Positions 5,279 to 51,187 of a stretch of DNA of 51,332 bases are shown piece by piece. The translations under genes were made by a program, and so were the position numbers. The notes beneath the pieces are model-generated. The model searched no databases and was not told the DNA's origin. It saw only the letters and a program-made list of their open reading frames with translations. The stretch spans positions 1 to 51,332 of the forward strand of contig JAFXMW010000103.1 of the NCBI GenBank assembly GCA_017530105.1, given 5' to 3'. Every line of letters starts with the position of its first letter. Position 1 is the first letter of the stretch. Source of the stretch: Bacteroidales bacterium (GTDB taxonomy: Bacteria > Bacteroidota > Bacteroidia > Bacteroidales > P3).

Positions 5279-5381
5279 TCGCTCGTTCCCCGTTCCTTAT
5301 GCATCAGTTCTCCCATATTTCTCCCATCCTGCATGGGAGAAATATGGGAGAAATATGGGAGAACTGAGGGGGAACGAGCGA
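5279..5381. repeat. 103-bp palindromic element with 11-bp units, copy 1
   Basis: This is one of three elements of identical length in the window. It begins TCGCT and ends AGCGA. The dyad centre is at +52. The left inner arm holds two 11-bp units and the right arm three (ATGGGAGAAAT, ATGGGAGAAAT, ATGGGAGAACT). CAGTT lies at +27 to +31 and a 5-nt spacer (CCTGC) at the centre. The outer 13 bases of each end are complementary. It lies between the convergent DUF3078 and DUF4159 genes and abuts the DUF4159 stop codon. Flanking sequence is unrelated to that of the other copies. It could act as a bidirectional terminator, be a protein-binding site, or be a miniature mobile or REP-like unit. Confidence 0.9.
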
Positions 5382-6029
5382 CTATTGGGTGAAAACAAAT
5401 TGCAGAATGTTCTCGCCCATCTGGAAGGCTTTTTGGCGGATGGCCTGGCTGTCGTTGTGCACATCGGGGTCTTCCCAACCGTCGCCGAGGTCACATTCGT
5501 AGGTGAAAAGGCATACCAGACGGCCTTGATAGATAAGGCCGTAGGCTCGTGGAGGGAGGTTGTCGTGTTCGTGAATTTTGGGCAGACCATTGGGGAAGTG
5601 GTATTTCTGGTGGAAGATGGGGTGGGAGAAAGGCAGTTCGACAAAATCGAGTTCAGGGAAGACTTTTTTCATCTGAGGGATGACGTAGTCCTTGATGCCG
5701 TAGTTGTCGTCGATATGTAGGAAACCGCCGCCTATGAGGTAGTTGCGCAGGTTTTGCACTTCTTGGTTGTTGAAGAGTACGTTGCCGTGGCCGGTCATGT
5801 GGACGAAGGGGTGGTTGAAGAGCTGGCTGCTGCCCACGTCGACAACGGCATATTCGGTAGCGAGGTTCATGCGTGCGTCGGCGTTGCAGAAGGCTATGAG
5901 GTTGGTGAGGGAGGTGGGGTTGGCATACCAGTCGCCGCCCCCGCCGTATTTGAGGAGTGCTATCTGGGTCTGGCCTTTCACCAGCAGACAAGTGCAGCCG
6001 AGAAACAACAGTAAAAGAGTCTTTTTCAT
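5382..6029 (-). CDS. DUF4159 domain-containing protein
   Basis: A 215-residue secreted protein: signal peptide MKKTLLLLFLGCTCLLVKGQ, then the DUF4159 pattern KYGGGGDWYANPTSLTNLI, VDVGSSQLFNHPFVHMTGHG, NYLIGGGFLHIDDNYG, PFSHPIFH, HEHDNLPPRAYGL and LVCLFTYECDLGDGWEDP. DUF4159 has a glutamine-amidotransferase-like fold, and in many Bacteroidota the domain stands near gliding or envelope genes. No enzymatic activity is established. The gene is convergent with DUF3078, with a 103-bp palindrome directly at its 3' end. A good -7 box (minus strand) lies 27 bases upstream of the ATG. Confidence 0.9.
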   Translation of the reverse strand: MKKTLLLLFLGCTCLLVKGQTQIALLKYGGGGDWYANPTSLTNLIAFCNADARMNLATEYAVVDVGSSQLFNHPFVHMTGHGNVLFNNQEVQNLRNYLIGGGFLHIDDNYGIKDYVIPQMKKVFPELDFVELPFSHPIFHQKYHFPNGLPKIHEHDNLPPRAYGLIYQGRLVCLFTYECDLGDGWEDPDVHNDSQAIRQKAFQMGENILQFVFTQ

Positions 6030-6055
6030 GGGACTGTAGATATGTAATTACTTTG

Positions 6056-6063
6056 CAAAGATA
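6056..6063 (-). promoter_or_regulatory. -7 promoter box for the DUF4159 gene
   Basis: On the minus strand this reads TATCTTTG, matching TAnnTTTG, followed by C. It lies 27 bases upstream of the ATG at 6029, giving a short leader of about 20 nt. Confidence 0.6.
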
Positions 6064-6215
6064 CATCTTTTTTTTGTAATGACAGAAAAACGGAAATGCA
6101 AGGTGTGGCGAAGTTGCAGATGGCGGTGGTGGATGAATCGTTTTTTTTTTGAATAATTGTGTGTGATTTGAATATTTTTTGTATATTTACAGGACAAAAT
6201 ACAATAATAAAAACC

Positions 6216-9184: not shown

Positions 9185-9278
9185 TGATGTGACGGTTGAG
9201 TCTATAACGCGGTCTTTTTTTTGTTGAGTACAATAAAAAGATGTTTTTTCCGTTAGAGTAGGAAAATTTGTCTGCGTT

Positions 9279-10475: not shown

Positions 10476-10484
10476 TGACGGGTT

Positions 10485-16099: not shown

Positions 16100-16210
16100 T
16101 CGCTTATGGGGCATCGTTTCGTCATCAGTTGTCCTGTACTTCTATATTCATTGGATATAGAAGTAATATATATGTGATATATATGTAATATAGAAGTAAT
16201 ATATATGTAA
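16100..16210. repeat. Diverged relative of the 103-bp palindromic element, with five 11-bp units
   Basis: It begins TCGCT, and CAGTT follows after exactly 21 bases, the same spacing as in the three 103-bp copies. ACTTCTATA (16138-16146) and TATAGAAGT (16156-16164) form a dyad centred at 16151, which is +52, again identical. From 16156 five 11-bp units run in register: TATAGAAGTAA, TATATATGTGA, TATATATGTAA, TATAGAAGTAA, TATATATGTAA. Unit sequence differs from the other copies and no clear AGCGA right end is seen, so kinship is inferred from geometry and the left end. Confidence 0.65.
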
Positions 16211-22926: not shown

Positions 22927-25900
22927 ATGAAACGATTAAGATTATTATTTGTGATGTTGGTTGCGCTGTTGCCGCTGGCTTCCCGCTCGCAGGTATATGT
23001 CAGCGACTACCAGTTCTCATCCAACACAGGTGGTTTCCTGTCCATCTCTTCCACAGGCACTGAAATTACTTCGTTTGCCACTGCCACTTCCAATGCGTCC
23101 GAACAGTTGCCGCTCCAATTCGTTTTCCCCTTTGGGCAGGACACTTGCTCGTTTGTGACGGTAGGCTCCACAGGACAGATAGGCATTGGTGCTGCCAATC
23201 CGACCTCAGGTGGGTATTTTTCGGAACACGCCAACGACATGAGCATCATCGCTCCTCTTGGCATGCCGTATCTTCTCCAAAATGCTCCGGGCGAATGGCA
23301 TGTCTATTACGAGGCCGGTGGCATAGCTCCCGACCGCACCATGACCATTGAGTATAACCACATGAGGCCAAATCTCAGCTCCCCCGTTGCCGATTCGGAG
23401 TACTTCACATTTCAGGTAATTCTCCACGAAACGGGAGACATTGAATTCGTTTATGATACCCTCCATGTTCTCTCGAATCATTCTATGTTAATTTTTATTC
23501 GCGAACATGGCGCCAATGCTGCCTCTTTTGTTACGGGATCGTTTTCCAGCCCGACGATTGTACACAGTTTGGATGACATTGTTTTGTCTACAACCAACCT
23601 CCCCACACCGGGTTTAACCATGACTTTCTCTCGCATTGAGAACAGTTGTCCCCGTCCACTCAACTTCTCTTGCATGTCGGTTTTCCGTCCCGACAGCATT
23701 GTTTTTGGTTGGAATACAGCCCCGACAACCTCCATGTGGGAATTGCGTTATGATACAGTGGGAACACCTGTCGGCAGTATGCAAAACGTAATACAATATA
23801 TTTCCGACTCTTTCTATGTATGCTCCACCATGGTTGCCGGAGGTTTATATGATGCTTATCTCCGCACCGACTGTGGGGGCGAACAGAGTTTCTGGGAAGG
23901 GCCTGTAACAGTTTCCCCAGGCTCCTATAACATGCCCATAGTTGGAACAAATACTATTTACGCCTGTGGCGGTACCATCTATGACAACGGTGGTGCATCA
24001 GGCAACTATTCCGAAAACTGCAACTCCATCTTCATCATTCAACCCTCGCATCCCGATTCCGTTGTTGTCATTAGCGGTACCCTCAACTCTGAATCCAGCT
24101 ACGACTATCTCTACATTTATGACGGTGCCGGGGTTTCGGGATCATTGCTCTTCCAGGGTAGTGGGAGCCAAACCATCAATGCCGTCCGTTCCTTGTCGGG
24201 TCCTCTCACGGTCCGTTTTACCTCTGATGGAAGTGTGAATAGAAGCGGCTTTGCTCTTTACGTGAGTTGTGAAAGGGCTCCGATGTGCCGCACGGTTGTC
24301 AACACAGAGATATCCCACATTGCCGGTGCCTCGGCATTGTTTACGTGGTCTTTGATGGGGACTACAAATATTCCCAACTATTTCATTGTCAAGTTGCGTA
24401 ATCTCTCCGACCCAACGGAAGCCGTATTCTCCGTTACCACAAATAGTCTCGAGTACTTCTTCTCGGAATTGAATCCCCAAACCATGTACAGAGCCTGTGT
24501 CTCCAGCGTCTGCGGCGCCGACACGATAGTGGGTGACTCGGTTGAGTTCACTACAGCCTGCCTTTTGGGTGGATTGTCACAACCCTCGGGATATGGCAAT
24601 TCTCAAATCACAGGTATACCCGTCTACTCTAGTTGGGGTAATTCTTTTTGCCAAAGCATTTTCACGCTTTCTGAATTGAATGACATGGGGATATCTGCCG
24701 GACCAATCACGGGTATTACCTATACATGGGCCAGTGCGGGGTCATACAATAAGGATTTGGTCATTTTCATGGGGCATACCACCAATAACACCTTTACCAG
24801 TTTCTCGCCCCTTACTGGCAGTATGACCCAGGTCTACCAAGGTCCACGTACCACTTCCGATGTGGGTACTATCGAATATCATTTCGACACTGCTTTTATT
24901 TGGGACGGTGTCAGTAATATTGTAGTCTCCTCTTTCGTCAATCAGCCTTCCGGCGCAAGCCATGCATCCTCTGGTTTTTATGGCTACAGTTCCAACTGCG
25001 GTTCCAGCCGTTCCATTTATGGCTACAAGGACAATGTTGCTTACACTCTCAGTAACCTCACCACAAACAGCGGTACCAGTGTCTCGTCCTATCGTCCCAA
25101 TATCAGTTTTATTATGCCTTGCGACACCACGGCAACCTGTGTGGCTCCCAATTTGGTACTTCGTGAGGTGACAACCGACAGTGTCAAACTGTTCTGGGCT
25201 CCAGGATACAACGAAACCGCATGGAATATTCAGTATAAGGAAGCCAGCGAGGATACCTGGGCTACCATCGCCACCAATATTACTGCTACCAACTACGAGA
25301 TTGGAGGCCTGCAGCCCATGACCGATTATCTCTTCCGTGTCCTTCCCGTATGCGGTGGCGACAGCATCTATGCTGTGGTAAGTGCCACCACTCCTTGTGT
25401 GCCTTTAACCGATCTCCCCTTTACCGAGGATTTCGAGAACTTTAACGCTCTTTCCTCAATGGGGTCTGACATTACAAATTGCTGGTACCGTGGAACCAAT
25501 TATCCGAGTTCGTTCTTCCCCTATCGCTCAACCAGCTATGCCCATAGTGGCAGCGCTTCCATGTATTTCTATGCCAGTTCTTCTTATCATTGTTATTTGG
25601 CACTCCCTGCCTTCGACGTGAATGCCGATACCTTGCAAATCAGTTTCGCAGCCAGGAAAACCTCTGCATCCTATAGCATTCAGGTGGGCGTCATGACCGA
25701 TCCTAACGATTTCTCCACTTTCTCACCCGTCGCCATCATCTCACCCGAAACGGTCAACAACTGGGAGATGTTTGAAGTTCCCTTGTCCTCTTACATGGGC
25801 GATGGAAAACATATTGCACTGGCAGGCTCTTCAGGCTATGTATATATCGACGACATCGAAGTGTCCTACATCCCGAATTGTGCCAGACCACGCAATGTTG

Positions 25901-28900
25901 CTGCCACCGCCACCACAACCACTGCCACCATCCATTGGGATGGGTCTGGCAGCAATTTCTTTGAAATAGAATATGGCCCAAGAGGTTTCGCCCATGGTTC
26001 CGGTATCATTGTCACCAGCACCGTCGACAGTGTCACAATCTATGGTCTCAACCATTCCTCAGCATACGAAGTATATGTCAGAAGCATCTGTAGCCTCTCC
26101 GACACTTCCAACTGGTCGTTTGTTTATTATTTCAACACCCAGTGCGGTGTCATAGACTCACTTCCTTTCTCCGAAAACTTCACCACATGGGGCTATGGCA
26201 CATCGGTCCGTCCCAACTGTTGGAGTTGCGGTGGATATAGCAATTATCCATACATCACTACCAATAACGATGTGGAAAACAATGTCTCTGATTTGGTTCT
26301 TTACATGTACTCCTACAGCTCCAATCAGGTCTATGCCTCCCTGCCTGAACTCGACAGTGTCAGTTATCCAATCAACATTACCCAAACAGTTTTCCGTGCT
26401 TGGTCAAACATCTCATCTTCTTATTACTCTCATATCCTGATAGTGGGTGTTTGCTCCGAACAAGGCAATTTGGCCACTTTCACTCCCGTCGACACTGTTG
26501 TGCTTTCGGGAGAACCGACAACCTATGAAGTGGCTTTCGACGAGGTTGCCGATGCAGGCAAATACATCACATTCGTCTCCACATGTATCGATCCCTCGGC
26601 CTATTACAATTATGTATATCTTGACAGCGTTGCCATAGAACTGATACCCAATTGTCAGCGTCCCAACCGTCTGCGTGCCGCTGCCGTCACAGCCAATAGT
26701 GCCACCCTCCAGTGGAACGAACGCAACCTCTCCACTACTTGGCAGGTAGAATATGGTCCACACGGCTTTGTCATGGGTACAGGCACCCGTGTCATCACTT
26801 CCAGCAACCCCCTCACTGTATCGGGTCTCCTTCCTTCCACAGTCTATGATTTCTATGTGCGTACCATCTGCTCATCCTCCGACACCTCGCTTTGGTCTGC
26901 CACACCAGGCCAGTTCGTTACCCGTCAAAATCCCGCTTCGGTTCCCTATTTCTACGATTTTGAAACCGCTGAAGAATGGGGCAACTGGCAAACCAACAGC
27001 AACACCACCATCAACTGGTACCGTGGCACCGATGCCGGCAATGGTGACATCGGAATTGAAGTAACTGGACAATACTCCATATTCGTTTCGGCCGATACAG
27101 GCCGCACCTATGGTACTTCGCTCGACCGTGTGGTTAACGCCACCACCTACCGCGACTTCGACTTCGGCCCGGTCGACTCCAGTTTCACACTTACCTTCCG
27201 TGCCAGAGCCGGTGGCACCCCCTCGCAAGGCTATGATGGTCTCATGGTCTTCCTTGTCGATCCCGACACCCCTGTTGTTGCCTCTAATGCCAACATCACT
27301 TCGCCTTGGGGCGATGTCCGCGACCTCACGCCGCTTGTCACGGTTCGTGTAAGCAGCTATTGGAACACCTACAGTGCGGTGCTTGACAATATCTCAGGTG
27401 TCCACCGTATTGCCTTCTTCTGGTTCAACCAGTCCACCGCCAGCACACCTTTCCTTGGTGGACCTGCTGCTGTCGACAATGTCAGCATCAATTATATAGG
27501 CTGCCCGCGTGCGGCAAATGTTCGTGCCGAAAACGTCACCATGGCCTCGGCCAATATTGTATGGGACGGCCCCTCATCAGCCGAATACCGTGTCACTTGC
27601 CACCGTGCTGGCTATACCCTTGTCAATGAAATTGTCAACACCAATAGCCTCCGCATCACCGGCCTCGACCCGGGATCGCGCTACACTGTCTATGTCCGCC
27701 GCCTCTGCAGTGACACCGACAGCGCCACCCTTTCGCTTGTCTGCAACTTCACTACCAAGATATGCAACGATGCCGTAGACGATGTTATCGGCGACACAAC
27801 AGGCACTACGGTCTCTTACTATATCCCCGTCAACAACTACTATAATTTTTCCTACACTCAGCAAATAGTCCCTTCAAGTGAAGTTAACGGTGTGGGTGAA
27901 ATCACCTCCATTAGTTTCAGATACGACATTGCCACTGCCTCCACTTCCAAAACCAACTGCACCATCTACATGGGTCACACCTCCCGCCATAGTTTCGCCA
28001 ACTCAAGCGATTTTGTTGACCCCGACAGTCTGCGGATGGTTTACACGGGCAATCTCAACTGTGAGCAAGGTTGGAACCAGTTCTTGCTCAACACGCCATT
28101 TGCCTATGACGGAGTCAGCAACCTGGTCATTGCTGTCGACGACAATAGTGATTCCTACAACGGCTCCAACTATACTTTCAACATCTCCAATACCGGTGGG
28201 TCGGCAATCACATTCTATAGCGACGTGTCCAATCCTGACCCCTCTTCACGTAGCAGCCTCGAGGCCTTCTTGGATTCGCGTTCCGTACATTCTTTCATCA
28301 ACCAAATGCGGGTCGAGTTCTGTCCTCCCAATGCTTGTCCTCCCCCCACCCTCCGCGAACCTATTATCCGCTCCTCTGGTGTAACCCTACGTTGGCGCAA
28401 CACCTCCGACCTCTATCAGATAAGCTATCGCCCCGCATATACCACCAGCTGGACTACCAGCAACCTCCGTGTCACCGACACCTTCTACACCATCCATTCC
28501 CTCTATCCCATGACCGACTACGTCTATCAAGTGCGCCAGCACTGCGACAGCACCGGTGTCTCCAACTGGGTCTCCGGCACCTTCAATTCCAGCAACGTGC
28601 CTTGTCTGCCCCCAATGGATCTCCATGTAACCAATGTCACTAACAACAAGGTGGATTTTGCATGGACTCCCGAGGAAAACAACAACGGTTATCGCCTGCA
28701 TGTGTTCAACTCCTATTTCGACAAGACGATTACCACTTATGTGGCCCATCGTTCTGTTTCAGGCCTCGATGGAGGTATGACCTACTATGCAGCTGTCAGA
28801 GCCGAATGTGAAGGCTTTGATGAACTCGGACAATGGAGCGACACCATATCGTTCACCACCGACGTTTGTCCCGATGCCACCGACCTTACCTATTCCGACC

Positions 28901-29409
28901 TGCAGGGTAATAGCGTGGTCCTCGATTGGGTTGAAGGCGGACGTGCCGATCGATGGGAAATCCAGTTCGGTCCTGCCGGTTTCGACCAAGGCACAGGTGT
29001 CTCCGAAATCGCCGACCACCACCCCTATACCCTTAGACACCTCATCGGCGAAACGGACTACGACATCTACGTGCGTGCCATCTGCGGTGAGAACTTCTAC
29101 AGCGAACACTGGTCCAACCTCATCAGCATCACCACTCCCTACAGCAGCATCTCCAGTGCCACCGACGATGCCCGCGTAAAACTCGCACCCAACCCCACCA
29201 GCGGCGATGTAACAGTTACTCTGCCGTCTGTCAGCGGTTCCGTGAAGGTGGAAGTGTTGGATATGTCGGGTCGTGAGCAGTTGTCACAAACACTCCCGTC
29301 GGGTACCGAATCGGTAATTCTTGCCACTTCGCAACTTAGCCAAGGTGCCTACTTTGTCCGAGTAACGGGTGATAGCATCAACACTGTCAAGAAATTGATT
29401 GTACGTTAA
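22927..29409 (+). CDS. Giant multidomain T9SS surface protein A (2160 residues)
   Basis: The signal peptide (MKRLRLLFVMLVALLPLASRSQ) fixes the ATG at 22927; the open frame upstream to 22657 lacks any such feature. Modules in order, approximate residues: N-terminal beta domain 22-235; FN3-like 245-335; CUB-like 343-448 (CGGTIYDNGG, YDYLYIYDG); FN3 449-540; a recurrent unnamed module 548-728; FN3; three jelly-roll (choice-of-anchor J/cleaved-adhesin-like) domains near 828-983, 1077-1241 and 1337-1524, each followed by FN3; a second unnamed module 1622-1798 (NCTIYMGHTS, YDGVSNLVIAVDD); three FN3; T9SS tail 2083-2160 (LAPNPTSGDVTVTLP, VKKLIVR). FN3 units repeat the motif EYGPxGF. Likely an adhesin or ligand-binding surface protein. 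It is paralogous to the next gene and divergent from the C25 protease. Confidence 0.92.
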   Translation: MKRLRLLFVMLVALLPLASRSQVYVSDYQFSSNTGGFLSISSTGTEITSFATATSNASEQLPLQFVFPFGQDTCSFVTVGSTGQIGIGAANPTSGGYFSEHANDMSIIAPLGMPYLLQNAPGEWHVYYEAGGIAPDRTMTIEYNHMRPNLSSPVADSEYFTFQVILHETGDIEFVYDTLHVLSNHSMLIFIREHGANAASFVTGSFSSPTIVHSLDDIVLSTTNLPTPGLTMTFSRIENSCPRPLNFSCMSVFRPDSIVFGWNTAPTTSMWELRYDTVGTPVGSMQNVIQYISDSFYVCSTMVAGGLYDAYLRTDCGGEQSFWEGPVTVSPGSYNMPIVGTNTIYACGGTIYDNGGASGNYSENCNSIFIIQPSHPDSVVVISGTLNSESSYDYLYIYDGAGVSGSLLFQGSGSQTINAVRSLSGPLTVRFTSDGSVNRSGFALYVSCERAPMCRTVVNTEISHIAGASALFTWSLMGTTNIPNYFIVKLRNLSDPTEAVFSVTTNSLEYFFSELNPQTMYRACVSSVCGADTIVGDSVEFTTACLLGGLSQPSGYGNSQITGIPVYSSWGNSFCQSIFTLSELNDMGISAGPITGITYTWASAGSYNKDLVIFMGHTTNNTFTSFSPLTGSMTQVYQGPRTTSDVGTIEYHFDTAFIWDGVSNIVVSSFVNQPSGASHASSGFYGYSSNCGSSRSIYGYKDNVAYTLSNLTTNSGTSVSSYRPNISFIMPCDTTATCVAPNLVLREVTTDSVKLFWAPGYNETAWNIQYKEASEDTWATIATNITATNYEIGGLQPMTDYLFRVLPVCGGDSIYAVVSATTPCVPLTDLPFTEDFENFNALSSMGSDITNCWYRGTNYPSSFFPYRSTSYAHSGSASMYFYASSSYHCYLALPAFDVNADTLQISFAARKTSASYSIQVGVMTDPNDFSTFSPVAIISPETVNNWEMFEVPLSSYMGDGKHIALAGSSGYVYIDDIEVSYIPNCARPRNVAATATTTTATIHWDGSGSNFFEIEYGPRGFAHGSGIIVTSTVDSVTIYGLNHSSAYEVYVRSICSLSDTSNWSFVYYFNTQCGVIDSLPFSENFTTWGYGTSVRPNCWSCGGYSNYPYITTNNDVENNVSDLVLYMYSYSSNQVYASLPELDSVSYPINITQTVFRAWSNISSSYYSHILIVGVCSEQGNLATFTPVDTVVLSGEPTTYEVAFDEVADAGKYITFVSTCIDPSAYYNYVYLDSVAIELIPNCQRPNRLRAAAVTANSATLQWNERNLSTTWQVEYGPHGFVMGTGTRVITSSNPLTVSGLLPSTVYDFYVRTICSSSDTSLWSATPGQFVTRQNPASVPYFYDFETAEEWGNWQTNSNTTINWYRGTDAGNGDIGIEVTGQYSIFVSADTGRTYGTSLDRVVNATTYRDFDFGPVDSSFTLTFRARAGGTPSQGYDGLMVFLVDPDTPVVASNANITSPWGDVRDLTPLVTVRVSSYWNTYSAVLDNISGVHRIAFFWFNQSTASTPFLGGPAAVDNVSINYIGCPRAANVRAENVTMASANIVWDGPSSAEYRVTCHRAGYTLVNEIVNTNSLRITGLDPGSRYTVYVRRLCSDTDSATLSLVCNFTTKICNDAVDDVIGDTTGTTVSYYIPVNNYYNFSYTQQIVPSSEVNGVGEITSISFRYDIATASTSKTNCTIYMGHTSRHSFANSSDFVDPDSLRMVYTGNLNCEQGWNQFLLNTPFAYDGVSNLVIAVDDNSDSYNGSNYTFNISNTGGSAITFYSDVSNPDPSSRSSLEAFLDSRSVHSFINQMRVEFCPPNACPPPTLREPIIRSSGVTLRWRNTSDLYQISYRPAYTTSWTTSNLRVTDTFYTIHSLYPMTDYVYQVRQHCDSTGVSNWVSGTFNSSNVPCLPPMDLHVTNVTNNKVDFAWTPEENNNGYRLHVFNSYFDKTITTYVAHRSVSGLDGGMTYYAAVRAECEGFDELGQWSDTISFTTDVCPDATDLTYSDLQGNSVVLDWVEGGRADRWEIQFGPAGFDQGTGVSEIADHHPYTLRHLIGETDYDIYVRAICGENFYSEHWSNLISITTPYSSISSATDDARVKLAPNPTSGDVTVTLPSVSGSVKVEVLDMSGREQLSQTLPSGTESVILATSQLSQGAYFVRVTGDSINTVKKLIVR

Positions 29410-29415
29410 TACTCA

Positions 29416-29436
29416 CAGGAAATCTTCGATTTCCTG
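29416..29436 (+). terminator. Hairpin after giant protein A
   Basis: CAGGAAATC and GATTTCCTG form a perfect 9-bp stem with a 3-nt loop, seven bases after the stop codon. No U-tract follows, so it may protect the mRNA end or act with the structures downstream. Confidence 0.5.
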
Positions 29437-29447
29437 ATATCCCCATT

Positions 29448-29480
29448 CATATCGAGCGATGCATAGTTTCGCTCGATATG
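29448..29480. repeat. 12-bp perfect inverted repeat overlapping the left end of the 103-bp element copy 2
   Basis: CATATCGAGCGA (29448-29459) is the exact reverse complement of TCGCTCGATATG (29469-29480) with a 9-nt loop. The right arm starts precisely at the first base of the 103-bp element. This hairpin and the element's own outer stem cannot form at once. Confidence 0.8.
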
Positions 29481-29571
29481 CTATATATATACCTCAGTTC
29501 TCCCATATTTCTCCCATCTGCGATGGGAGAAATATGGGAGAAATATGGGAGAACTAAGGTAGGACGAGCGA
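29469..29571. repeat. 103-bp palindromic element with 11-bp units, copy 2
   Basis: Same length, ends (TCGCT and AGCGA), CAGTT position (+27) and inner units as copies 1 and 3; centre CTGCG. The variable 21-base stretch near its left end is AT-rich here (CGATATGCTATATATATACC) and unlike the other two. It sits between the two giant genes, which point the same way. Confidence 0.9.
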
Positions 29572-29804
29572 ACCGTGGCGGGGCTGTCTGTGACTGTTGG
29601 ACAGGGGGCAAAGGGGTGCTTCCTGTAGGATTAGGGGTCGAATAAGGCGCTTCAAATCGGTTTTTCCCCATTTCTGTCCATTAAATCACGCTTGAAATCT
29701 TAATTTTCGTCGTGCATTTTTCTTATTTCATCCGTTTTTTCATGATTTTCGCCACAAAAAAATTTTTTTTGTCACTTTTATATAAAATTATGAATAATAA
29801 TATG
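29572..29804. other. Non-coding leader region of the second giant gene
   Basis: About 230 bases with no recognisable gene. It becomes very AT-rich from about 29700 to the promoter at 29805. Confidence 0.5.
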
Positions 29805-29812
29805 TACCTTTG
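29805..29812 (+). promoter_or_regulatory. -7 promoter box for giant protein B
   Basis: TACCTTTG followed by CATC matches TAnnTTTG. It lies 37 bases before the ATG at 29850 and downstream of an AT-rich tract, so the tandem giant genes can be transcribed separately. Confidence 0.65.
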
Positions 29813-29849
29813 CATCAAAATTAAATGTTTAACTAAAATTATTGTACCA

Positions 29850-32800: not shown

Positions 32801-35800
32801 CTCTGCATACACTTTCTATAATCATAACGCCCCGAACAAAACCCGTTATATCTATCAGGACGGTTCGCGTTACAATCCCCAAGCACTCTCAGGGACAGGT
32901 ACGCTCTACTCTTCGCGCAGCAATATGAAGATTTATTCGGCAGAATGTCTTGGTCAAGGCGTATGTGCTGCTCCCAACGTTGTTGTTACAGAAGTCGGCA
33001 TCAACGATGTCTCCATCCAATGGGCGGCCGGCAACACTGAAACATCATGGGTTCTGGAATACAAGGCCGAAAGCGACACTAACTGGACTAGTTTGGGTGC
33101 GGTCTCAGCAACGAGCTACACTTTCAGTGATCTTACCCCCAGCACCACTTACCATTTCAGGGTGTCTGCCATGTGTGGCACCGAGTTGTACCCCACTACT
33201 GTCTCGTCACGTACTTTCTGCGAGTTCTGGTCAATCCCCTTCTTCGAGACTTTCCAGAGTTGGACGGCATCGTCGTCAGCACCTGCTCCCGATTGTTGGT
33301 ACAAGGCTTCGACCTACAACCCCAATTATCCTTATGTTACAACCTCGTATAACCACGGTGAAGGCAACCGCTCGATGTACATGTATAATAGCGGCTTTAA
33401 TTATACTTATGTGGTTCTGCCTCGTTTCGATGCACCGATTGACTCCCTCGAGGTCTCTTTCTTCATGTTGAAGACCAACAGTAGTTATAGGCATTCGCTG
33501 CGTGTAGGTGTGATGACCGATCCTAACGACATTAGTACTTTCCAGACCATACAAACGGTCTCTCCCGATCGGACTAACCAATGGAAAGGTGTGGTTGTGC
33601 CATTGGATTCCTATCACGGAAATGGCCAATTTATTGCCATCCGTACTTCTCCTGGATATAACTACCCCTATATCGATGATATCGGAGTCAATTATATTAG
33701 GCCGTGTATGCGTCCCGCCAACTTAAGTGTTGATAATGTAACCCGGAATTCGGTTACTGTTTACTGGGAAGATACATGCACATCGAACTTCGAGGTAGAG
33801 TGGGGTCCCGCGGGATTCTCTCGTGGCTCAGGCACTCTCACGACGGTATCTGCCGATAGTATTGATTTGACAGGATTGACAGTTAATACCCAGTACGATA
33901 TTTATGTGCGTGGTATCTGTGGAGAGAACGACACCAGTTACTGGTCGATCCCCTATACTTTCTGGAGTGGTTGCTATATTATCGACTCGCTCCCGTTCCA
34001 TGAAGATTTCGAGGGCATGCCTTCGTCTGATTCCTATAATCCCGAATTTGTTCATTGTTGGACCCGTCTTTCGGGTGATACCTACATCTACCCCTATCTT
34101 GGCGGTAGCACTTCCTATTCGCACGGCGGCGGCAACAGGGGACTCTATTGGTACTGCACCAACTCCTCTGGCTACAACTATGGTTCTGTCCCGGCGAGAT
34201 TTGTGGTACTTCCCGAGGTTGACACTCTTGCCCTGCCCATGAACACCCTTCAGCTCTCCTTCTGGGCAAAGCCTTCCAGCTCCACTTATCGTCCCGAATT
34301 TGCTGTCGGTGTGATGACCGATCCCAACGACCACACCACCTTTACTCCTGTCGACACTGTTGTTATCACCAGCACAGATTGGACCTATGTCGATATACCG
34401 ATGAACAACTATACGGGCCACGGCAGTTTCTTCTGCCTGAAGGACATCTATACTTCCTATTGGTATGCATACGTTGATGACTTCACGATTTCCGAGGCTC
34501 CGGATTGTCCTTCCCCCAATCGTTTGACCACGACGGGCAATACCAATACCTCGGTTGACCTGACCTGGCGTGAGCGCGGCAGTGCTACCATGTGGCAGGT
34601 GGGCTATTCCATTGGTGACGCCACTACAATGGTGTTCGACACTCTGGTCACCACCACCAGCATCACCATTCCCGGACTCACGTCGGGATTTAGATATAAT
34701 TTTGCTGTCCGTTCCATCTGCGGCTCTGGTGACACCACCGATTGGTCTCCTTCCATATCCGCAACACCCGGCTCATGGTTGATGCGTCCCAACATGAACG
34801 ACACGCTCCGTACCTGTTCTGCTGTCATCTATGACGACGGTGGCCCCGATAATACCTATAGTGCATCGCAGACCGACTACCTCGTCATCTATCCCGAGGA
34901 TGGAAGGTCGTTGATTGAGATTGAAGGTACCTGGCACGGCGAAAGCTGCTGTGACTATCTTGGCATCTACGATGGTGTGGGCAATAGCGGTACACAATTC
35001 TACTATGGTATTTCCGGATCCGAAATAAATCTCGGACCGTTCCTCTCCTCTTCCGGCCCCATTACTGTCTATTTCCATTCTGATGGTTCTGGCCAGTATG
35101 CCGGTTATGAGTTACATGTCAGTTGTGTCTCCACTACCTGCCGTGTATCCGATATTCGTATCGACACCACCTATCCCACCAGCGACGAGATGCTGCATGT
35201 CGTTTGGGAGCAACCTGAGGATGCCTCGTACTATGAGGTGGAGTATGGCAACCATGGCTTCATCCCCGGCACGGGTACTCAGATGGTTGTGTATAATAAT
35301 CATGCCACTCTGGCTGGTCTCACTCCGTTCACCAACTACGATGTGTATGTCCGTTGCTTCTGCACCACTGGCGATACAGGTTCTTGGGATATGCAAACCT
35401 TGCAGACCGATATGTGCTCCAACCTGACTTTAAAATATAGTTACGACAGCACTACCATGTCCACCACCACAAGCAGTTACGGCCCCTTGGGCTACAGTTT
35501 CTACAATTACGGCTTTACTCAGACCATTGTGGACAGTGCCATGCTGGCCGGCTTGGTCGATCCCATTAATGCCTTTGCGTTCCGTCCGGCAACCAGCAGC
35601 CAAGGCGATTACTACACACACATGGATGTCTATCTCGCCAATGTGCCCGAGAGCAACTTGTCTAGCGGGTTCATTTTGCCCGACAGCAACCACCAGTATG
35701 TTAGAGTTCTGCATGATGCCAACTTGTGTTACAATAACACCAACTGGCAGATGCACGGCTTCGACACTCCCTTCACATGGGACGGCCACAGCAACCTGCT

Positions 35801-37640
35801 GGTTTCTGTCAGCCGCCGTCATGGCGTTTATCAGAGCGGTGCGTCATTCGCTGCCCACAGCGCTTCGAGTGCCAAGACCCGTTATGTCTATCAAGATGGT
35901 AGTATCTACGACCCGTACACTCCTTCATCCCTCTCCTCTGGTAGTTCCGGCACCGAGAACTTAGTGGCTGACCTTATCTTCTATGCCTGCGGAGTCAGCA
36001 TTACGTGTCAGCCGCCTGTCATCTCCAATGTCACCCACGACTACGAAACTGCCACCATTACTTGGGTGGGTTCGGGTTCGGACTATGAAGTTAATATCAA
36101 AGAGAGTTCTGCCGCCAACTGGCCTGCCACCGACATTGTCGTCTCTGGCAACAGCTACACCTTCACCGGTCTGCAGGCAGCCACCTACTACACCTTCCGT
36201 GTCCGTAAGCACTGTGTCGAAGACAGCATGTACAGCATCTGGGTCGAGGACGGCATCCTCACCGACAGCCTGCCCTGCATCCCTCCCGACAGCCTGCATG
36301 CCACTGCCGTCACCAACACCACGGCCACCCTCGACTGGTCTGTCAACGGTTATGAAACTCAATGGGACATCCACGTCTGGTACTCTGGCTTCGACAGCAT
36401 TTATCGCGTTACCAGCCATCCTGTCACCATCGGTGGATTTATCCCCGGTGTCACCTACAACGCTGCCATACGTCCTCTCTGTGGTGTCGACCTGCTCGAA
36501 GGCGGCTGGAGCGACACGGTGACCTTCACCACTGCCGTATGCCCCAATGTCACCGGACTCACCGCCGGCAACATCACAGCCAACAGCATTACCCTCAACT
36601 GGACGGCCGACCCGATGGCACAGAGCTGGGTAATCGAGTATGGCTACTATGGCTTCGACCAAGGTACTGGCACTCAGGTCAACACTACCACCAACAGCTA
36701 TGTGTTCAACGGTCTTGAAGACGAAACCGACTACGACTTCTACGTCAAAGCCGTCTGCGGCACCGACTGGATGAGCGAAAACTGGACTAACACCAACGCC
36801 ACCACCCTCAGCGGCGGTGTCACCTGCGAGGCTCCCGTAGCAGTCCATACCACCGTGGCCGACAACAGCGTCACCGTCAACTGGACAGCCGGCGAAGGCA
36901 ACAACACCTTCGAGCTTGAGTACGGTCCCCACGGCTTCAGCCATAGCGCTGGAACCATTGTCAGTGCCAACGCCTCACCCGCCACTATCAGCAACCTCGA
37001 CTACGAGACCCAGTACGACGTATATGTGCGCGCCATCTGCGACCAGAACACCTACAGTGCCTGGAGCACCGTGTCCACCTTCACCACCGGCGAGCAACCC
37101 TCCGAGGACTGCGACCCCGTCGCCAACCTCACCGTGGTTGAGATTACCGAGACCACTGCCACCGTCACCTGGACACCCGGTGCCACCGGCGACCATTGGC
37201 AGGTAGTGGTGAGCGATGCCAACGGCAGCACTGTCAGCGATGCCACTGTCAGCGAACCGCGTGCCAACCTCACCGGCCTCACCCGCCGTACCAACTACAC
37301 CGTCAGTGTCCGCACCGACTGCGGCGAGGGCAACCATAGCTCCTATGTCACTGCCAACTTCCGCACCGAAGGCGAAGGCATCGACGATGTCACATCAGCC
37401 ACCTGCACCATCTATCCCAACCCGACCAGCAACTCCACCACCATCAGCGTGAGCGGAGTGAACGGAAAGGTTAAGATTGCCGTCGTCGACATGAACGGCC
37501 GCACCGTAGCCACCGAGACCCTCGAGTGCAACAGCGACTGCGCCAAGACGATGGATGTCGACAACCTCGCCCAGGGTGCCTACTTCGTACGCATCACCAG
37601 CGACAGCGTCAACATGGTCAAGAAACTGATTGTGCGCTAA
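29850..37640 (+). CDS. Giant multidomain T9SS surface protein B (2596 residues)
   Basis: The ATG at 29850 is set by the signal peptide (MKKFLRFLCIMAFALMPLWG) and by the promoter at 29805, which lies inside the longer open frame. Approximate modules: jelly-roll domains near residues 29-230, 321-497, 581-754, 1124-1284 and 1377-1550, each followed by an FN3-like unit; the same unnamed module as in protein A near 849-1032 and 1857-2047 (NCTIYMAHTN, YDGTSNIVISILD); a CUB-like domain 1647-1760 (CSAVIYDDGG, CDYLGIYDG); FN3 and then five consecutive FN3 units before the T9SS tail 2514-2596 (IYPNPTSNSTTISVSG, VKKLIVR). The 3' third is visibly richer in C-ending codons than the 5' part. A paralogue of protein A, likely an adhesin or matrix protein. 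Confidence 0.92.
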   Translation: MKKFLRFLCIMAFALMPLWGHSQSPVVDTVPYFCDFEDTVWNHSHWTLINGSCYNFFVIDTSTNATPGGERSLYVTEMYQDALPYSYKPGSSVSGAESDVASRVFAVAVINFPDTGLYDIGFWWNCYGENVYDYGRVILAPTTYVFTASTGQWDTNTSVPGEYLGSVTTPSNCINLNGNSPLSNVTGPQYRYMTFHIGTAGNYQLAVMWLNDGNTGDQPPLMIDDITITPHLCEAPTNLMVDYFTGDTVVMRWDNVAPSYVVKWDTAGVSVSYSHVDTINTNSYMITGLPQNGQYEMLVQAVCPNNSLSMASNYHIVMPDYSCSITELPYTINFDTITVMGDAGTPADIPCWIHLTNFSNLTYAGYPYVSPNSSYAHTGSNVLYYEYAPNYVTRNGWCLPILDRSFDLPGVVVEFWGATTSTEARMVVGVMSDPNNLESLVACDTVIMTGSTPTQYTVPLSNYMGNGRYIAIMMVNPTSTGTYVYAYVDDISLSYEPCMRPGVVSSVITDTSAVITWAPTNGYYYEWTMDLSDDAEINRINDTTLVLSDLSPSTYYTVYLRSMCDAPGMWNAYRFRTPCGPLRSLPYFENFDAYGSGSTTAGTPFIDCWERWVDGIYWYPYIYSYASYAHSGTTSIYWYRNSTAGDYGTTNYVVLPGIDTNYIPMQNVMLKFWAKSSSTSYSPSFEIGVMNSASDTASFRSVGFIDIESTDYMEYSISFENYTDTGSYIAVRSHHTGQSWTAYLDDFTIDNLPTCPNIIIPDELSAGTTSVYLTWENSLSIDSAISYDIEVVDVDSNNAPATYTTNTIGYFVTGLTTNTEYNVRMRASCDTSEGGWAYATFQTRDLPCGSFDSTSLDTAQIGNGTGTDYYIPLNNFYNYSYTQQIVTASELGTTNNTLTGIDFEFSYTTATTSKTNCTIYMAHTNLSDLSSGWIPFDDSFVPVYVGHLNAQSGWNHYEFTNPFTYDGTSNIVISILDNSGAYNGSAYTFYNHNAPNKTRYIYQDGSRYNPQALSGTGTLYSSRSNMKIYSAECLGQGVCAAPNVVVTEVGINDVSIQWAAGNTETSWVLEYKAESDTNWTSLGAVSATSYTFSDLTPSTTYHFRVSAMCGTELYPTTVSSRTFCEFWSIPFFETFQSWTASSSAPAPDCWYKASTYNPNYPYVTTSYNHGEGNRSMYMYNSGFNYTYVVLPRFDAPIDSLEVSFFMLKTNSSYRHSLRVGVMTDPNDISTFQTIQTVSPDRTNQWKGVVVPLDSYHGNGQFIAIRTSPGYNYPYIDDIGVNYIRPCMRPANLSVDNVTRNSVTVYWEDTCTSNFEVEWGPAGFSRGSGTLTTVSADSIDLTGLTVNTQYDIYVRGICGENDTSYWSIPYTFWSGCYIIDSLPFHEDFEGMPSSDSYNPEFVHCWTRLSGDTYIYPYLGGSTSYSHGGGNRGLYWYCTNSSGYNYGSVPARFVVLPEVDTLALPMNTLQLSFWAKPSSSTYRPEFAVGVMTDPNDHTTFTPVDTVVITSTDWTYVDIPMNNYTGHGSFFCLKDIYTSYWYAYVDDFTISEAPDCPSPNRLTTTGNTNTSVDLTWRERGSATMWQVGYSIGDATTMVFDTLVTTTSITIPGLTSGFRYNFAVRSICGSGDTTDWSPSISATPGSWLMRPNMNDTLRTCSAVIYDDGGPDNTYSASQTDYLVIYPEDGRSLIEIEGTWHGESCCDYLGIYDGVGNSGTQFYYGISGSEINLGPFLSSSGPITVYFHSDGSGQYAGYELHVSCVSTTCRVSDIRIDTTYPTSDEMLHVVWEQPEDASYYEVEYGNHGFIPGTGTQMVVYNNHATLAGLTPFTNYDVYVRCFCTTGDTGSWDMQTLQTDMCSNLTLKYSYDSTTMSTTTSSYGPLGYSFYNYGFTQTIVDSAMLAGLVDPINAFAFRPATSSQGDYYTHMDVYLANVPESNLSSGFILPDSNHQYVRVLHDANLCYNNTNWQMHGFDTPFTWDGHSNLLVSVSRRHGVYQSGASFAAHSASSAKTRYVYQDGSIYDPYTPSSLSSGSSGTENLVADLIFYACGVSITCQPPVISNVTHDYETATITWVGSGSDYEVNIKESSAANWPATDIVVSGNSYTFTGLQAATYYTFRVRKHCVEDSMYSIWVEDGILTDSLPCIPPDSLHATAVTNTTATLDWSVNGYETQWDIHVWYSGFDSIYRVTSHPVTIGGFIPGVTYNAAIRPLCGVDLLEGGWSDTVTFTTAVCPNVTGLTAGNITANSITLNWTADPMAQSWVIEYGYYGFDQGTGTQVNTTTNSYVFNGLEDETDYDFYVKAVCGTDWMSENWTNTNATTLSGGVTCEAPVAVHTTVADNSVTVNWTAGEGNNTFELEYGPHGFSHSAGTIVSANASPATISNLDYETQYDVYVRAICDQNTYSAWSTVSTFTTGEQPSEDCDPVANLTVVEITETTATVTWTPGATGDHWQVVVSDANGSTVSDATVSEPRANLTGLTRRTNYTVSVRTDCGEGNHSSYVTANFRTEGEGIDDVTSATCTIYPNPTSNSTTISVSGVNGKVKIAVVDMNGRTVATETLECNSDCAKTMDVDNLAQGAYFVRITSDSVNMVKKLIVR

Positions 37641-40192: not shown

Positions 40193-40256
40193 CTTGTTTT
40201 ACACTTTTTCTACACTTGTTTTACACTTTAAAAGTGTAAAACAAGTGTAAAACAAG
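40193..40256. repeat. Palindrome of 11-bp tandem units (TGTAAAACAAG type)
   Basis: The left arm holds three 11-bp units (CTTGTTTTACA, CTTTTTCTACA, CTTGTTTTACA; 40193-40225). The right arm holds two copies of the exact reverse complement TGTAAAACAAG (40235-40256). The centre is CTTTAAAAG. It has a three-versus-two arrangement like the 103-bp elements but an unrelated unit sequence, and it sits between convergent genes. It is treated as an architectural analogue; common origin is not shown. Confidence 0.8.
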
Positions 40257-40278
40257 CTTAGGAGGAGTGAAAATAAAA

Positions 40279-40306
40279 CAGCGGGTATCCTATGGGATGC
40301 CCGCTG
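40279..40306 (+). terminator. Terminator between the convergent coiled-coil and rubrerythrin genes
   Basis: CAGCGGGTATCC pairs with GGGATGCCCGCTG and is followed by GTTGTTTTTTG. On the minus strand the hairpin is followed by TTTTATTTTC, so it can serve both genes. Confidence 0.8.
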
Positions 40307-40329
40307 GTTGTTTTTTGTTATTCGACTTC

Positions 40330-48739: not shown

Positions 48740-48792
48740 AACTATCCCCATCCATGGAATCCAATATTATAACCAATAAAAAACACTACACA

Positions 48793-51069
48793 ATGAAAAA
48801 GAAAACAATTCTTTTTGCCCTCGGCCTCTTGCTCCTGGGCAGCCTCAAGGCGCAGACCTCCATGCCGGTACCCCACGGCAGTTTCGAACAGTGGACCTCC
48901 CATCCGGCTTACAGCCTTTCCTTTTTCGGCATGAGTTTCCCTATCCACGACAGCTGTCCCTATCCCACCGGATGGAACTACCTCTCCTATCCGGTCAACG
49001 AGACCGTCCCCGTTCTAAACCTCAACATCAATACTAACTTACCCTTGATGAAGATAAGCCGCGAGACAGGTTCCGTACCCGACAGCAACTCGGCTGCCAA
49101 ACTGCAGACTTTCATGCTCGAGGATCTAATCTTTGATAACATTTACAGCCTTGTGGAGTCCCAACTCGACTCCATGCTCACCCAGACTGTTTTCCCCTCA
49201 GTACTCTCCACCGGTGCCGTCGACCTCGAAACCTTCATACCCATAGTGAGCAACCTCCTTTCCAACATGGACAGTGTCGAGGACATTCTGGCATCGCTGG
49301 CCACAATGGATGTCAACGAACTCATCTCCGGGGGCATCGCCCTCAACGGTTTTGAACCTTCAAGACTGACGGGTAGCTATAAATACCACTCCGCCGTCAG
49401 CGGCGACAATGGTGCAGTCATCCTCCTCGGCACCCACTACAACCCCGTCACCCAGCAGCGCGACGTGGTGGGCGGTGGCGCCAACACCTCCCTCACCGAC
49501 ATCGCCAACTACTCCCCCTTCACCGTCGATTACCTCTCCCTCCACTCGCTCGACTCCTCCTTCCCCGAGCAGGCTCCCGACTCCCTCATTGTCATCCTCC
49601 TCTCCTCCGCCAGCGAAAACATGCAACAGGGTTCATACCTCTGTGTCGACAACCTCCTGTTGTGGCACGACACCATACCGGTTGTCCCTCCCGACACCTG
49701 TGCCGCCATTGCCGGGCTGACGGCTGCCCCAGCCACCCACGAAACTACCCTCAATTGGAGCACCACCGCCGTGGTCAACGGCTATGAATTGGAATACGGC
49801 CTTGCCGGTTTCTCCTTGGGCAGCGGCACCCGTCTTACCCTCACCAACAACACCGCCACCCTTACAGGCCTTGCCGCCAACACCCTTTACAGTGTCTTCC
49901 TTCGCACCCTCTGCTCCGACAGCATCTATGGCGAATGGACTTCCCTCCAGTTCCTCACAAACCCCGACACCTGTGCCTCCATCACCGGTCTGACGGCAAC
50001 CCCCGACATCCACGAGGCGGTGATTGAATGGAGCACCACCGGCACTGTGAGCGGCTACGAGCTGGAATACGGTCTGGCAGGCTTCTCCCAAGGCAGTGGC
50101 ACCTCAGTGTTTCTCTCAGCCAACACTGTCACCCTCATCGGTCTGATAGCCAATACCCACTACGACCTATATCTCCGCACCCGCTGCTCCGACAGCATCT
50201 ACGGCAACTGGGTTCCCCTCCAGTTCCGCACACTCCCCGACACCTGCGCCACGGTGCTTGACTTAGTAATTGTTGCCACCCCGGACATCCCCACATATTA
50301 TTCCCTGCAATGGTCGAGCAGCTCAGAACCCCAATCATGGGAAGTGGAGTACGGTCTACATGGCTTTGCCCTCGGCACAGGTACAGTGTTGCAGGTGAAC
50401 AACCATAACCATTATCTGTTTATCTCTGCCCTCGACCTCGACAACAACACCGACTACGACTTCTATCTCCGCTCTGTGTGCGACGGCAGCATCTATGGGG
50501 AATGGGACTCCGTACTTTTCCACAGTCCCTGTGGCAGGGTTGATCATGGATTCGTGCACGACAATAACCTCTCCTTTACCCCTGACAGTCTCGTCAACGG
50601 ATACCGTGTCTCATGGGGTGACCGCGATGGTATCAGTGAGTGGGAAGTGAGGTTCGGGAACGATACCCTTGGCTACCAAACAGCTATAGTCAGCCAACCC
50701 AACATCGACTTGCCTCCGCTCATGCCCAACACCCGTTACACCGTATTGGTGGCTTCCCGTTGCGGTGAGGATGCCTATGGCGAATGGTACCCGGTGGTTT
50801 TCACCACCATCGAATTACCCGTGGGCATAGACCAAGCGGAAACCCTTGCTCTCACTGTCACTCCCAACCCCGCACACGGTAGCTGCACCGTGACTCTCCC
50901 CTGTGGCGAACCCACCGAACTGAAACTCTTCAGCCTCGACGGCCGTCTGCTGCAGACCGTTTTTGCCGAAGGAACGTCAGCCACGCTGCTCCTTCCCTCG
51001 TCAGGTGTGTTCCTGCTGCAGGCCACCACTCCGTCAGGCATTGCCACCCGCAAGATTGTCAACAAATAG
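48793..51069 (+). CDS. Secreted FN3-repeat protein with T9SS sorting domain
   Basis: A 758-residue protein; the ATG at 48793 gives the signal peptide MKKKTILFALGLLLLGSLKA, and upstream in-frame starts would hide it. Residues about 24-290 resemble the PCMD-type putative carbohydrate-binding jelly roll (HGSFEQWTS, PTGWNYLSYP, GSYKYHS, YLCVDNLLLWHD), a tentative match. Four fibronectin-III-like units follow (about 300-670), repeating ELEYGLAGF and LYLRT. The C-terminal T9SS tail is VTPNPAHGSCTVTLP, LFSLDGRLLQTV and TRKIVNK. Likely a cell-surface glycan or host-binding protein. It follows the transglutaminase-like lipoprotein by 53 bases on the same strand. Confidence 0.9.
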   Translation: MKKKTILFALGLLLLGSLKAQTSMPVPHGSFEQWTSHPAYSLSFFGMSFPIHDSCPYPTGWNYLSYPVNETVPVLNLNINTNLPLMKISRETGSVPDSNSAAKLQTFMLEDLIFDNIYSLVESQLDSMLTQTVFPSVLSTGAVDLETFIPIVSNLLSNMDSVEDILASLATMDVNELISGGIALNGFEPSRLTGSYKYHSAVSGDNGAVILLGTHYNPVTQQRDVVGGGANTSLTDIANYSPFTVDYLSLHSLDSSFPEQAPDSLIVILLSSASENMQQGSYLCVDNLLLWHDTIPVVPPDTCAAIAGLTAAPATHETTLNWSTTAVVNGYELEYGLAGFSLGSGTRLTLTNNTATLTGLAANTLYSVFLRTLCSDSIYGEWTSLQFLTNPDTCASITGLTATPDIHEAVIEWSTTGTVSGYELEYGLAGFSQGSGTSVFLSANTVTLIGLIANTHYDLYLRTRCSDSIYGNWVPLQFRTLPDTCATVLDLVIVATPDIPTYYSLQWSSSSEPQSWEVEYGLHGFALGTGTVLQVNNHNHYLFISALDLDNNTDYDFYLRSVCDGSIYGEWDSVLFHSPCGRVDHGFVHDNNLSFTPDSLVNGYRVSWGDRDGISEWEVRFGNDTLGYQTAIVSQPNIDLPPLMPNTRYTVLVASRCGEDAYGEWYPVVFTTIELPVGIDQAETLALTVTPNPAHGSCTVTLPCGEPTELKLFSLDGRLLQTVFAEGTSATLLLPSSGVFLLQATTPSGIATRKIVNK

Positions 51070-51084
51070 AGACGAACAGTAGGT

Positions 51085-51187
51085 TCGCTCCTTCACCGTT
51101 TCTTATCCGTCAGTTCTCCCATATTTCTCCCATCCGGGATGGGAGAAATATGGGAGAAATATGGGAGAACTGGGGGTGAACGAGCGA
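51085..51187. repeat. 103-bp palindromic element with 11-bp units, copy 3
   Basis: Same length and ends (TCGCT, AGCGA) as copies 1 and 2, with CAGTT at +27, the three inner units ATGGGAGAAAT, ATGGGAGAAAT, ATGGGAGAACT and centre CCGGG. Its outer pairing is the best of the three, extending three bases beyond the element (GGT/ACC). It lies between convergent genes. Confidence 0.9.

Follow-up and report, generated by a model that had tools for sequence, protein, structure and literature searches.

The window analyzed here is the whole 51,332-nucleotide contig JAFXMW010000103.1 (positions 1 to 51,332, forward strand) of the Bacteroidales bacterium assembly GCA_017530105.1, and it contains three copies of an inverted, intergenic array of 11-bp units. 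These copies belong to a large family of intergenic arrays whose 11-bp unit differs between species of one Bacteroidales genus. The evidence points to a dyad-symmetric array that is used as DNA rather than as RNA. By analogy with known systems, we propose that the elements are dispersed dyad-symmetric DNA-wrapping sites, most likely for DNA gyrase, that have been spread by some copying process, and we give this reading a probability of about 0.37.

Copy number and anatomy of the element

The three elements of the window are as follows.

5279..5381, + strand: element 1, 103 bp, L arm on the left and S arm (short-outer, three clean units) on the right
5328-5332: spacer of element 1, CCTGC
29468..29572, + strand: element 2, 105-bp frame TTCGCT...AGCGAA, spacer CTGCG at 29518-29522
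51084..51188, + strand: element 3, 105-bp frame, spacer CCGGG at 51134-51138

The 103-bp cores of these elements (5279-5381, 29469-29571, and 51085-51187) start with TCGCT, end with AGCGA, and have CAGTT at +27. Each is made of two 49-bp arms around a 5-bp center; the left arm has two 11-bp units, and the right arm has three, namely ATGGGAGAAAT twice and then ATGGGAGAACT. This is exactly the palindrome that a first-pass annotation of the contig had described. A repeat search of the window returns elements 1 to 3 as one direct-repeat family and also as inverted repeats, and no Rfam family matches the window at gathering score.

The source genome (2.75 Mb in 146 contigs, 82.7% complete) contains 71 matches to the core pattern TTCTCCCAT-N(1-12)-ATGGGAGAA and none to the same pattern read backwards. 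The spacer between the arms is 5 nt in 71/71 copies, which, together with the absence of reversed matches, indicates that the pattern is not due to chance. The annotation had allowed that the three palindromes might be chance-like local duplications; with 71 copies in this genome and the same length and ends in two related genomes (G103 and G081, below), this is refuted. The unit arrangement is 2+3 in 54 of the copies, 2+2 in 11, and 3+3 in 3, and the arrangements 1+3, 1+2, and 2+4 occur in one copy each.

The length of 103 bp is correct for the core, but the repeat proper is 105 bp, with an extra T at the left end in 49/54 copies and an extra A at the right end in 48/54 (element 1 has C there); weak conservation continues for ~5 bp outside each end. 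The 21-base left spacer of the annotation is also present, but it contains another, degraded 11-bp unit, and TT thus recurs every 11 bp in both arms. The full frame is TTCGCT, four 11-bp units, the 5-bp center, four inverted 11-bp units, and AGCGAA. The S arm is a run of clean units, and the L arm has the degraded outer units. The ends TTCGCT/AGCGAA are imperfectly inverted, and terminal inverted repeats with inverted arms are found in all three species.

The same frame with different units in related species

A strict pattern of the ends has matches in 5/120 members of the genus and 5/190 members of the family, all in 1 of 12 genera. Two of these matching relatives, G081 (RUG360) and G103 (UBA1208), have many copies with the same 104- to 105-bp frame and different 11-mers (AGTTCTCTAAC/ATTTGTTCCTC/ATTTCTTCCTT in G081 and CGTTCTCCCAT in G103). 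The frame is 104 bp in 22 and 105 bp in 11 of 33 N-free G103 copies, and it is 105 bp in 14 and 104 bp in 4 of 18 G081 copies, one 94-bp copy being excluded. Across the species, the two arms of four 11-bp units are thus separated by a center of 4 to 5 bp. The G103 copies come from a sample of 1.086 Mb of ~2.7 Mb, in which a position-weight detector, trained in part on 9 arms from the same sample, found 42 copies and missed at least one truncated copy; in Markov-shuffled sequence it found none at cutoffs of 20, 24, and 28. The frequency of TT at positions 9, 20, 31, and 42, averaged over the arms, is 0.90 to 1.00 in the source genome, 0.64 to 0.91 in G103, and 0.69 to 0.94 in G081.

The 80-bp flanks of 21/42 G103 copies bear signatures of a longer repeat (e.g., at loci L227, L229, and L250), with the consensus AACCCAAATCaGtcATTAGGCTA... 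upstream and CCAAGGgCAGTGCgAAA... downstream of the element. A CCCAAAT..GTCATTA motif like that of this longer repeat is found near one copy in the source genome (L093).

A GTDB-wide scan returned 41 stretches, of which 23 contain an array (18 from RUG360, 3 from UBA1208, 1 from RGIG5033, and 1 from SRR8387719_bin.62) and 18 are chance-like by eye. A sequence-only model, R1, was built from 36 of 45 copies chosen from the source genome, G103, and G081. At E values of ≤0.001 it matches 64/119 genomes of the genus, including the three training species, and 17 of these have at least 33 matches. It matches 0/197 other genomes drawn from the order. Because some places were counted on both strands and at most 33 candidates per genome were scored for the genus and at most 20 for the order, the numbers of matches are not copy numbers. 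For 25 more of the matching genomes, one locus per genome was compared with itself at lags of 5 to 30: mean identity is 0.62 at lag 11, 0.52 at lag 22, and 0.22 to 0.35 at every other lag, and in 24/25 loci no lag from 5 to 21 does better than 11. The model itself favors TT at 11-bp steps and not the recurrence of the remaining letters.

Five further species were sampled at more than one locus, and three of them have the same unit throughout: AGTTCTCCAAC in G087 (6/6 loci), [AC]GTTCTTCGAT in G099 (4/4), and AGTTATACCTT in G116 (2/2). The units of G133 (6 loci) are less uniform, and G088 differs between its two loci. Across the 25 species, the unit has G at position 2 in 18/25 and C at position 8 in 21/25; positions 3, 4, and 6 were fixed by the pattern used for reading the units. 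In G099, unit variants are shuffled between loci. At one G122 locus (L317), the outer motif of the window species, CGCTCGTT...AACGAGCG, surrounds different, AT-rich units, and judging from this locus it is as if ends and units evolve separately. Neither the tested query nor the patterns have a match in plasmids, phages, or viral contigs, and an origin from a phage or plasmid was rejected for lack of matches in those collections.

Dyad symmetry and helical phase, not a stem, are conserved

Covariation between the arms was analyzed in 54/71 copies from the source genome, 33/42 N-free copies from G103, and 18/19 loci from G081. In the source genome, the number of pairs formed within copies is about that expected from independent columns. 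The mean folding energies of real and arm-swapped copies are -58.5 and -58.7 kcal/mol, respectively, in the source genome, -38.9 and -39.1 kcal/mol in G103, and -30.6 and -31.2 kcal/mol in G081, while dinucleotide-shuffled sequences give -25.7, -27.4, and -19.6 kcal/mol in the same order. Since a copy's own arms fit no better than swapped arms, there is no sign of base pairing that conserves the sequence; the exchange of arms between copies by recombination would give the same result. The outer ends do pair, as the first-pass annotation said, but no better within a copy than between the arms of different copies. Near-perfect dyads are found in G116 (0.95), G099 (0.92), and G011 (0.92).

The coherence of AA/TT at a period of 10.5 bp is 0.63 in the source genome, 0.51 in G103, and 0.42 in G081, compared with means of 0.25, 0.26, and 0.20 for Markov sequences. 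The mean phase difference between arms is 53 degrees in the source genome, 24 degrees in G103, and 1 degree in G081. The GC profile around the dyad has its strongest period at ~10.5 bp, with a similar phase in the three species, and fades beyond ~±57 bp. The conserved property is dyad symmetry with helical phase and not the stem. The annotation's idea of a protein array is backed indirectly by these inverted units in helical phase, by the retention of the phase despite the change of letters, and by the lack of covariation between arms.

Its suggestion of a bidirectional terminator is not supported. A scan of the three window elements found no terminator-like site (GC stem plus T run) at elements 1 and 2 and two weak ones near element 3, one of which overlaps the left end and neither of which uses the stem of the element. 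In at least two other copies, the genes on both sides point away from the element. A stem-loop or terminator as the conserved property was rejected on the arm swaps and the lack of a stem-using terminator at the window elements; on inspection, an integron-like attC site and a CRISPR were also set aside.

Genomic placement and spacing

Gene contexts were assigned with a home-made open reading frame (ORF) scorer for 59/71 copies in the source genome, of which 22 lie between convergent genes, 28 are in tandem settings, and 9 are divergent. The annotation had placed all three palindromes at gene 3' ends, two of them between convergent genes; the 3'-end position is correct for these three. Convergent sites are enriched over background gaps, at 22/59 versus 16/145 in the source genome (p=4e-5), 14/36 versus 39/397 in G103 (p=1.6e-5), and 4/18 versus 1/32 in G081 (p=0.05). 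The same comparison shows no significant depletion of divergent sites. For two of the nine copies called divergent in the source genome, Pfam supports the gene on either side (ClpB-type/epimerase and RimP/SIMPL).

Copies are also widely spaced. On contigs or stretches with at least two detected copies (the G081 site list being incomplete), none of 32 neighbor pairs is closer than 10 kb: 0/16 in the source genome (6.5 expected, p=5e-5), 0/13 in G081 (3.1 expected, p=0.02), and 0/3 in G103 (2.3 expected, p=0.01; unconditionally, 0 versus 8.9 expected, a result reached in 0/3000 simulations). Two diverged arrays in the window came to notice later and do not enter this test; with them included, the spacings between centers in the window are ~10.8, 13.4, 10.7, and 10.9 kb. 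A lag-11 scan of 490 kb around the other 68 copies in the source genome found no additional array.

Site history and mobility

Eleven sites in the source genome have both neighboring genes matched in the G103 sample. A G103 element is present at 4/11 of these, compared with 1/45 gaps without an element in the source genome (p=0.004), and each species has its own unit at all four shared sites. This fits concerted change as well as gaps that were used more than once. The other 7/11 sites have no detected G103 element. One of these matched gaps (L093/L261) has a unit in it and evidently holds a truncated array overlooked by the detector, in which case the shared count is 5/11. At one empty G103 site, the gap is 26 bp rather than 153 bp, i.e., 127 bp shorter. 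One locus is common to G063, G143, and G081 with the same flanks. A G103 locus near a contig end (L194, contig C98) joins the L-side flank of one source genome locus to the S-side flank of another (the two loci being L035 and element 3 at 51085 of the window), which is either recombination at the element or misassembly.

No excess of direct repeats above permutation, which would be the mark of a target site duplication, was found in 54 copies at the offsets tried. The RAYT transposase family (PF01797, Y1_Tnp) has no match in the source genome, at its 82.7% completeness, and none in G028, which is 97% complete and has at least 33 array matches; G001 has 7 PF01797 matches and no array match, and the family is present in 16/21 genomes tested. 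A search for orphan arms, with a pattern that covered half of the possible next letters, gave 6 matches, none with array context, and on this basis an autonomous parent with split arms was rejected. The GTAG and CGTC tags were found within 8 bp of the L end in 4/54 and 0/54 copies, and CTAC and GACG within 8 bp of the S end in 1/54 each. REP/REPIN identity was rejected on the absence of a RAYT match, of covariation, and of an end tag. The annotation's mobile-element alternative is partly supported: the sites lacking a detected G103 element (one of them with the truncated array) are in its favor, but no target duplication and no RAYT in the source genome were found.

The favored reading and its alternatives

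In the reading we favor, the array would bend DNA around a two-fold symmetric wrapping protein, which would most likely be DNA gyrase and less likely another nucleoid protein. Gyrase would make its 4-bp staggered cut at the dyad with each arm wrapped on a GyrA C-terminal domain, and at the arrays it would remove the positive supercoils that accumulate between convergent genes; with copies so far apart, each supercoil domain would have about one docking site. A copying process, either gene conversion or a transposase acting in trans, would spread copies or keep them alike within a genome, and we propose that each species has its own units because of it. Convergent placement and wide spacing suit such a supercoil sink. 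The Escherichia coli gyrase motif is reported to be 130 bp long and symmetrical about the 4-bp staggered cut, with two flanks of 47 bp that have a GC periodicity of 10.75 bp (PMC6379681), and gyrase cleavage preferences are described as species specific with a 10- to 11-bp GC periodicity (PMC12324340). Strong E. coli gyrase sites therein resemble the elements in their central symmetry of a few bp, arms of ~50 bp, and 10- to 11-bp periodic composition (PMC6379681), and symmetric arms with such a periodicity are what we found. The BIME-2 repeats, which are described as having the properties of strong gyrase sites and as gyrase bound, are likewise intergenic and repeated (PMC6379681). In contrast to the arrays, which are built of 11-mers and are candidate gyrase sites, the gyrase motif as described there is degenerate with no fixed letters, and BIME-2 is built of REP palindromes (PMC6379681).

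Several observations weigh against this reading. Any DNA-wrapping protein would fit equally well. The element, at ~105 to 117 bp, is shorter than the 130-bp gyrase motif, and its center in the source genome is 5 bp, whereas a type II enzyme needs a 4-bp stagger. Gyrase sites need no identical letters, so the homogeneity of the units needs a second cause. In G103, the mean coherence of 0.51 falls short of the value that marks the 95th percentile for single Markov sequences (0.54), periods of 10.5 and 11 bp are inseparable over 50 bp, and slippage alone yields exact 11-bp units, in which a fixed TT comes into phase for free. Convergent enrichment is also expected from harmless insertion. The 10-kb limit was picked after the distances had been seen, and at 5 kb the p values are 0.015 for the source genome, 0.16 for G081, and, for G103, 0.16 conditionally and 0.001 unconditionally; in these draft genomes, contig breaks may hide close pairs, and the detector misses truncated copies.

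The main rival, which we consider somewhat unlikely, is a nonautonomous mobile element of the miniature inverted-repeat transposable element (MITE) type. The 11-bp units would then be subterminal sites for a transposase supplied in trans, and the spacing would reflect target immunity of the Mu/Tn7 type. MuB-based cis-immunity has been described, and action over 10 kb is possible. High copy number within a species, imperfect inverted ends, the lack of detected neighbors within 10 kb, the 7/11 comparable sites at which no G103 element was detected (6 if the truncated array counts as present), and the gap that is 127 bp shorter all fit a MITE, but the 54 copies give no target duplication signal, the half-coverage orphan-arm search revealed no half-element, and the source genome has no RAYT (other transposase families were not searched). 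Nor does the query or pattern search of plasmids, phages, and viral contigs offer a vehicle, and the species' own units at the 4/11 sites shared with G103 are unexplained by a simple history of insertion. Next comes a binding array for a genus-specific DNA-binding protein other than gyrase, with a specificity that drifts with the unit. Confinement to the genus in the searches made and the partly shared unit (G2 in 18/25 species and C8 in 21/25, with other letters varying) would suit such a protein, yet positions 3, 4, and 6 of the unit were preset by the reading pattern, and the gene search covered PF01797 only; we regard it as improbable.

The RNA-level explanations appear less probable again. 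An RNA hairpin at mRNA 3' ends, whether a bidirectional terminator or a stabilizer, would be in keeping with the very stable fold in the source genome, the better-than-shuffled folds in G103 and G081, the near-perfect dyads in G116, G099, and G011, and convergent enrichment. However, stability is unchanged by arm swapping in three species, none of the three window elements has a terminator-like site that uses its stem, and 9/59 copies are apparently divergent, 2 with Pfam support on both sides, and we consider a hairpin very unlikely. A bidirectional Rho-loading (rut-like) element, in which a C/U-rich, G-poor arm would be entered on either strand, is slightly less probable still. The arms have a median C/G ratio of 5.0 versus 1.25 in control 3' flanks, a spaced-C motif is found in 51/142 element sides versus 24/176 controls, and a pyrimidine-C step about every 11 nt is close to the rut rule of C every 11 to 13 nt (PMC6407284). 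Against this, the rule describes about a third of the sides, and the arms in the source genome fold, whereas rut sites are described as unstructured (PMC6407284). It is TT that is phased in all three species, with TTC phased in the source genome and less so in G081, and although most units have a pyrimidine-C step, it is absent from 3/7 pattern matches at a G122 locus and 4/14 at a G036 locus. A passive, functionless repeat, made and homogenized as inverted arrays by slippage and gene conversion, is the least probable of all; it would account for variable unit numbers and for the unit variants shuffled between G099 loci, but it would not be expected to have a fixed frame and spacer, to be enriched between convergent genes, or to be widely spaced.

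Comparison with other dispersed repeats

REPIN/REP sequences resemble the arrays in being short, extragenic, inverted, and of high copy number, with letters that differ between species (PMC3116915, PMC3733652), but the family described here is built as arrays of 11-bp units. REPINs are described as RAYT associated, with compensatory changes common and with neighbor distances that are random above 200 bp (PMC3116915), whereas the arrays show no RAYT match in the source genome, no compensatory changes, and no detected pairs within 10 kb. Two repeats from the Bacteroidota are closer in host. The BrickBuilt MITE of Porphyromonas gingivalis is also intergenic, with tandem units and small inverted ends, and some copies are near genes of the type IX secretion system (T9SS; PorSS), but it is reported to consist of 1 to 22.8 direct repeats of a 23-nt unit over 84 to 991 nt (PMC4596501). 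The arrays, in contrast, have 11-bp units inverted around a center and a near-fixed length, and they do not have the 23-nt unit. PINSR of Prevotella intermedia/nigrescens is likewise lineage restricted and intergenic, with 177 to 184 copies and a function given as not known, but it is 188 bp long, is reported to be without terminal inverted repeats, and has no 11-bp units in the description cited (PMC4755523). A literature search by title and start of abstract, with subscription papers mostly outside its reach, returned nothing that describes inverted arrays of 11-bp units in Bacteroidota. The arrays are therefore dispersed extragenic repeats, a known kind, with a geometry not found in the literature searched. 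Taken as a whole, the interpretation in the first-pass annotation is partly supported.

Diverged members and gene surroundings in the window

The remaining features of the window are given below; the unit framing of the two diverged members was read from sequence.

3993..5096, + strand: DUF3078 gene on the left side of element 1, convergent with the gene that follows
5382..6029, - strand: gene right of element 1, DUF4159, with its stop codon adjoining the element
16138..16208, + strand: diverged member, with ACTTCTATATT as its single left unit, spacer CATTG, and five units on the right at 11-bp pitch
22951..29409, + strand: gene for an fn3 surface protein with a Por_Secre_tail sorting domain, left of element 2
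40195..40254, + strand: diverged member, left units TGTTTTACACT, TTTTCTACACT, and TGTTTTACACT, spacer TTAAA, right unit AGTGTAAAACA twice
48754..51069, + strand: gene left of element 3, fn3 protein, start at 48754 or, in the ORF list, 48727

Element 1 is flanked by convergent genes, and the setting of element 2 is tandem. Element 3 faces a minus-strand frame that ends in a stop and is cut by the contig end; by eye, the tail of this frame reads like a T9SS-type tail. The annotation's unrelated flanks hold among elements 1 to 3, but the flank of element 3 recurs beside two other copies in the genome. Three copies in the source genome and one in G103 are located past the 3' end of a multicopy gene whose tail resembles a T9SS sorting domain, each near a contig end (window 51188-51332, contigs C100 and C132 of the source genome, and contig C98 of G103), and the repeat probably broke the assembly there. 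Very large fn3 surface proteins, with DNA repeats common to them, occupy 22951-37640 and 48754-51069, and the first of them carries the T9SS sorting tail.

The diverged array at 40195-40254 is followed, within 40195-40315, by an apparently ordinary intrinsic terminator (stem at 40279-40306 plus a T run), and by eye a terminator-like neighbor is also present at a G110 locus (L330). Arrays and terminators look like separate parts.

Significance

Dispersed bacterial repeats are usually explained as relics of REP/RAYT systems or MITEs. This family stands out by its rigid geometry, a unit that differs between species, gaps that are shared while the letters have changed, and the avoidance of close neighbors. 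If the element is mobile, it would be a short element with long-range immunity whose transposase has not been found so far. More tentatively than the wrapping-site proposal itself, we suggest that the genus may carry a chromosome-wide set of protein-wrapping arrays that are kept at least ~10 kb from one another and have a unit of 11 bp that each species rewrites in concert, and that these may be supercoil-domain docking sites that coevolve with gyrase or another wrapping protein. If the arrays do hold gyrase or another wrapping protein, they would allow the supercoil domains of a bacterium to be mapped from its sequence, and the differently lettered arrays of the genus would be a natural series for asking what the wrapping protein reads.

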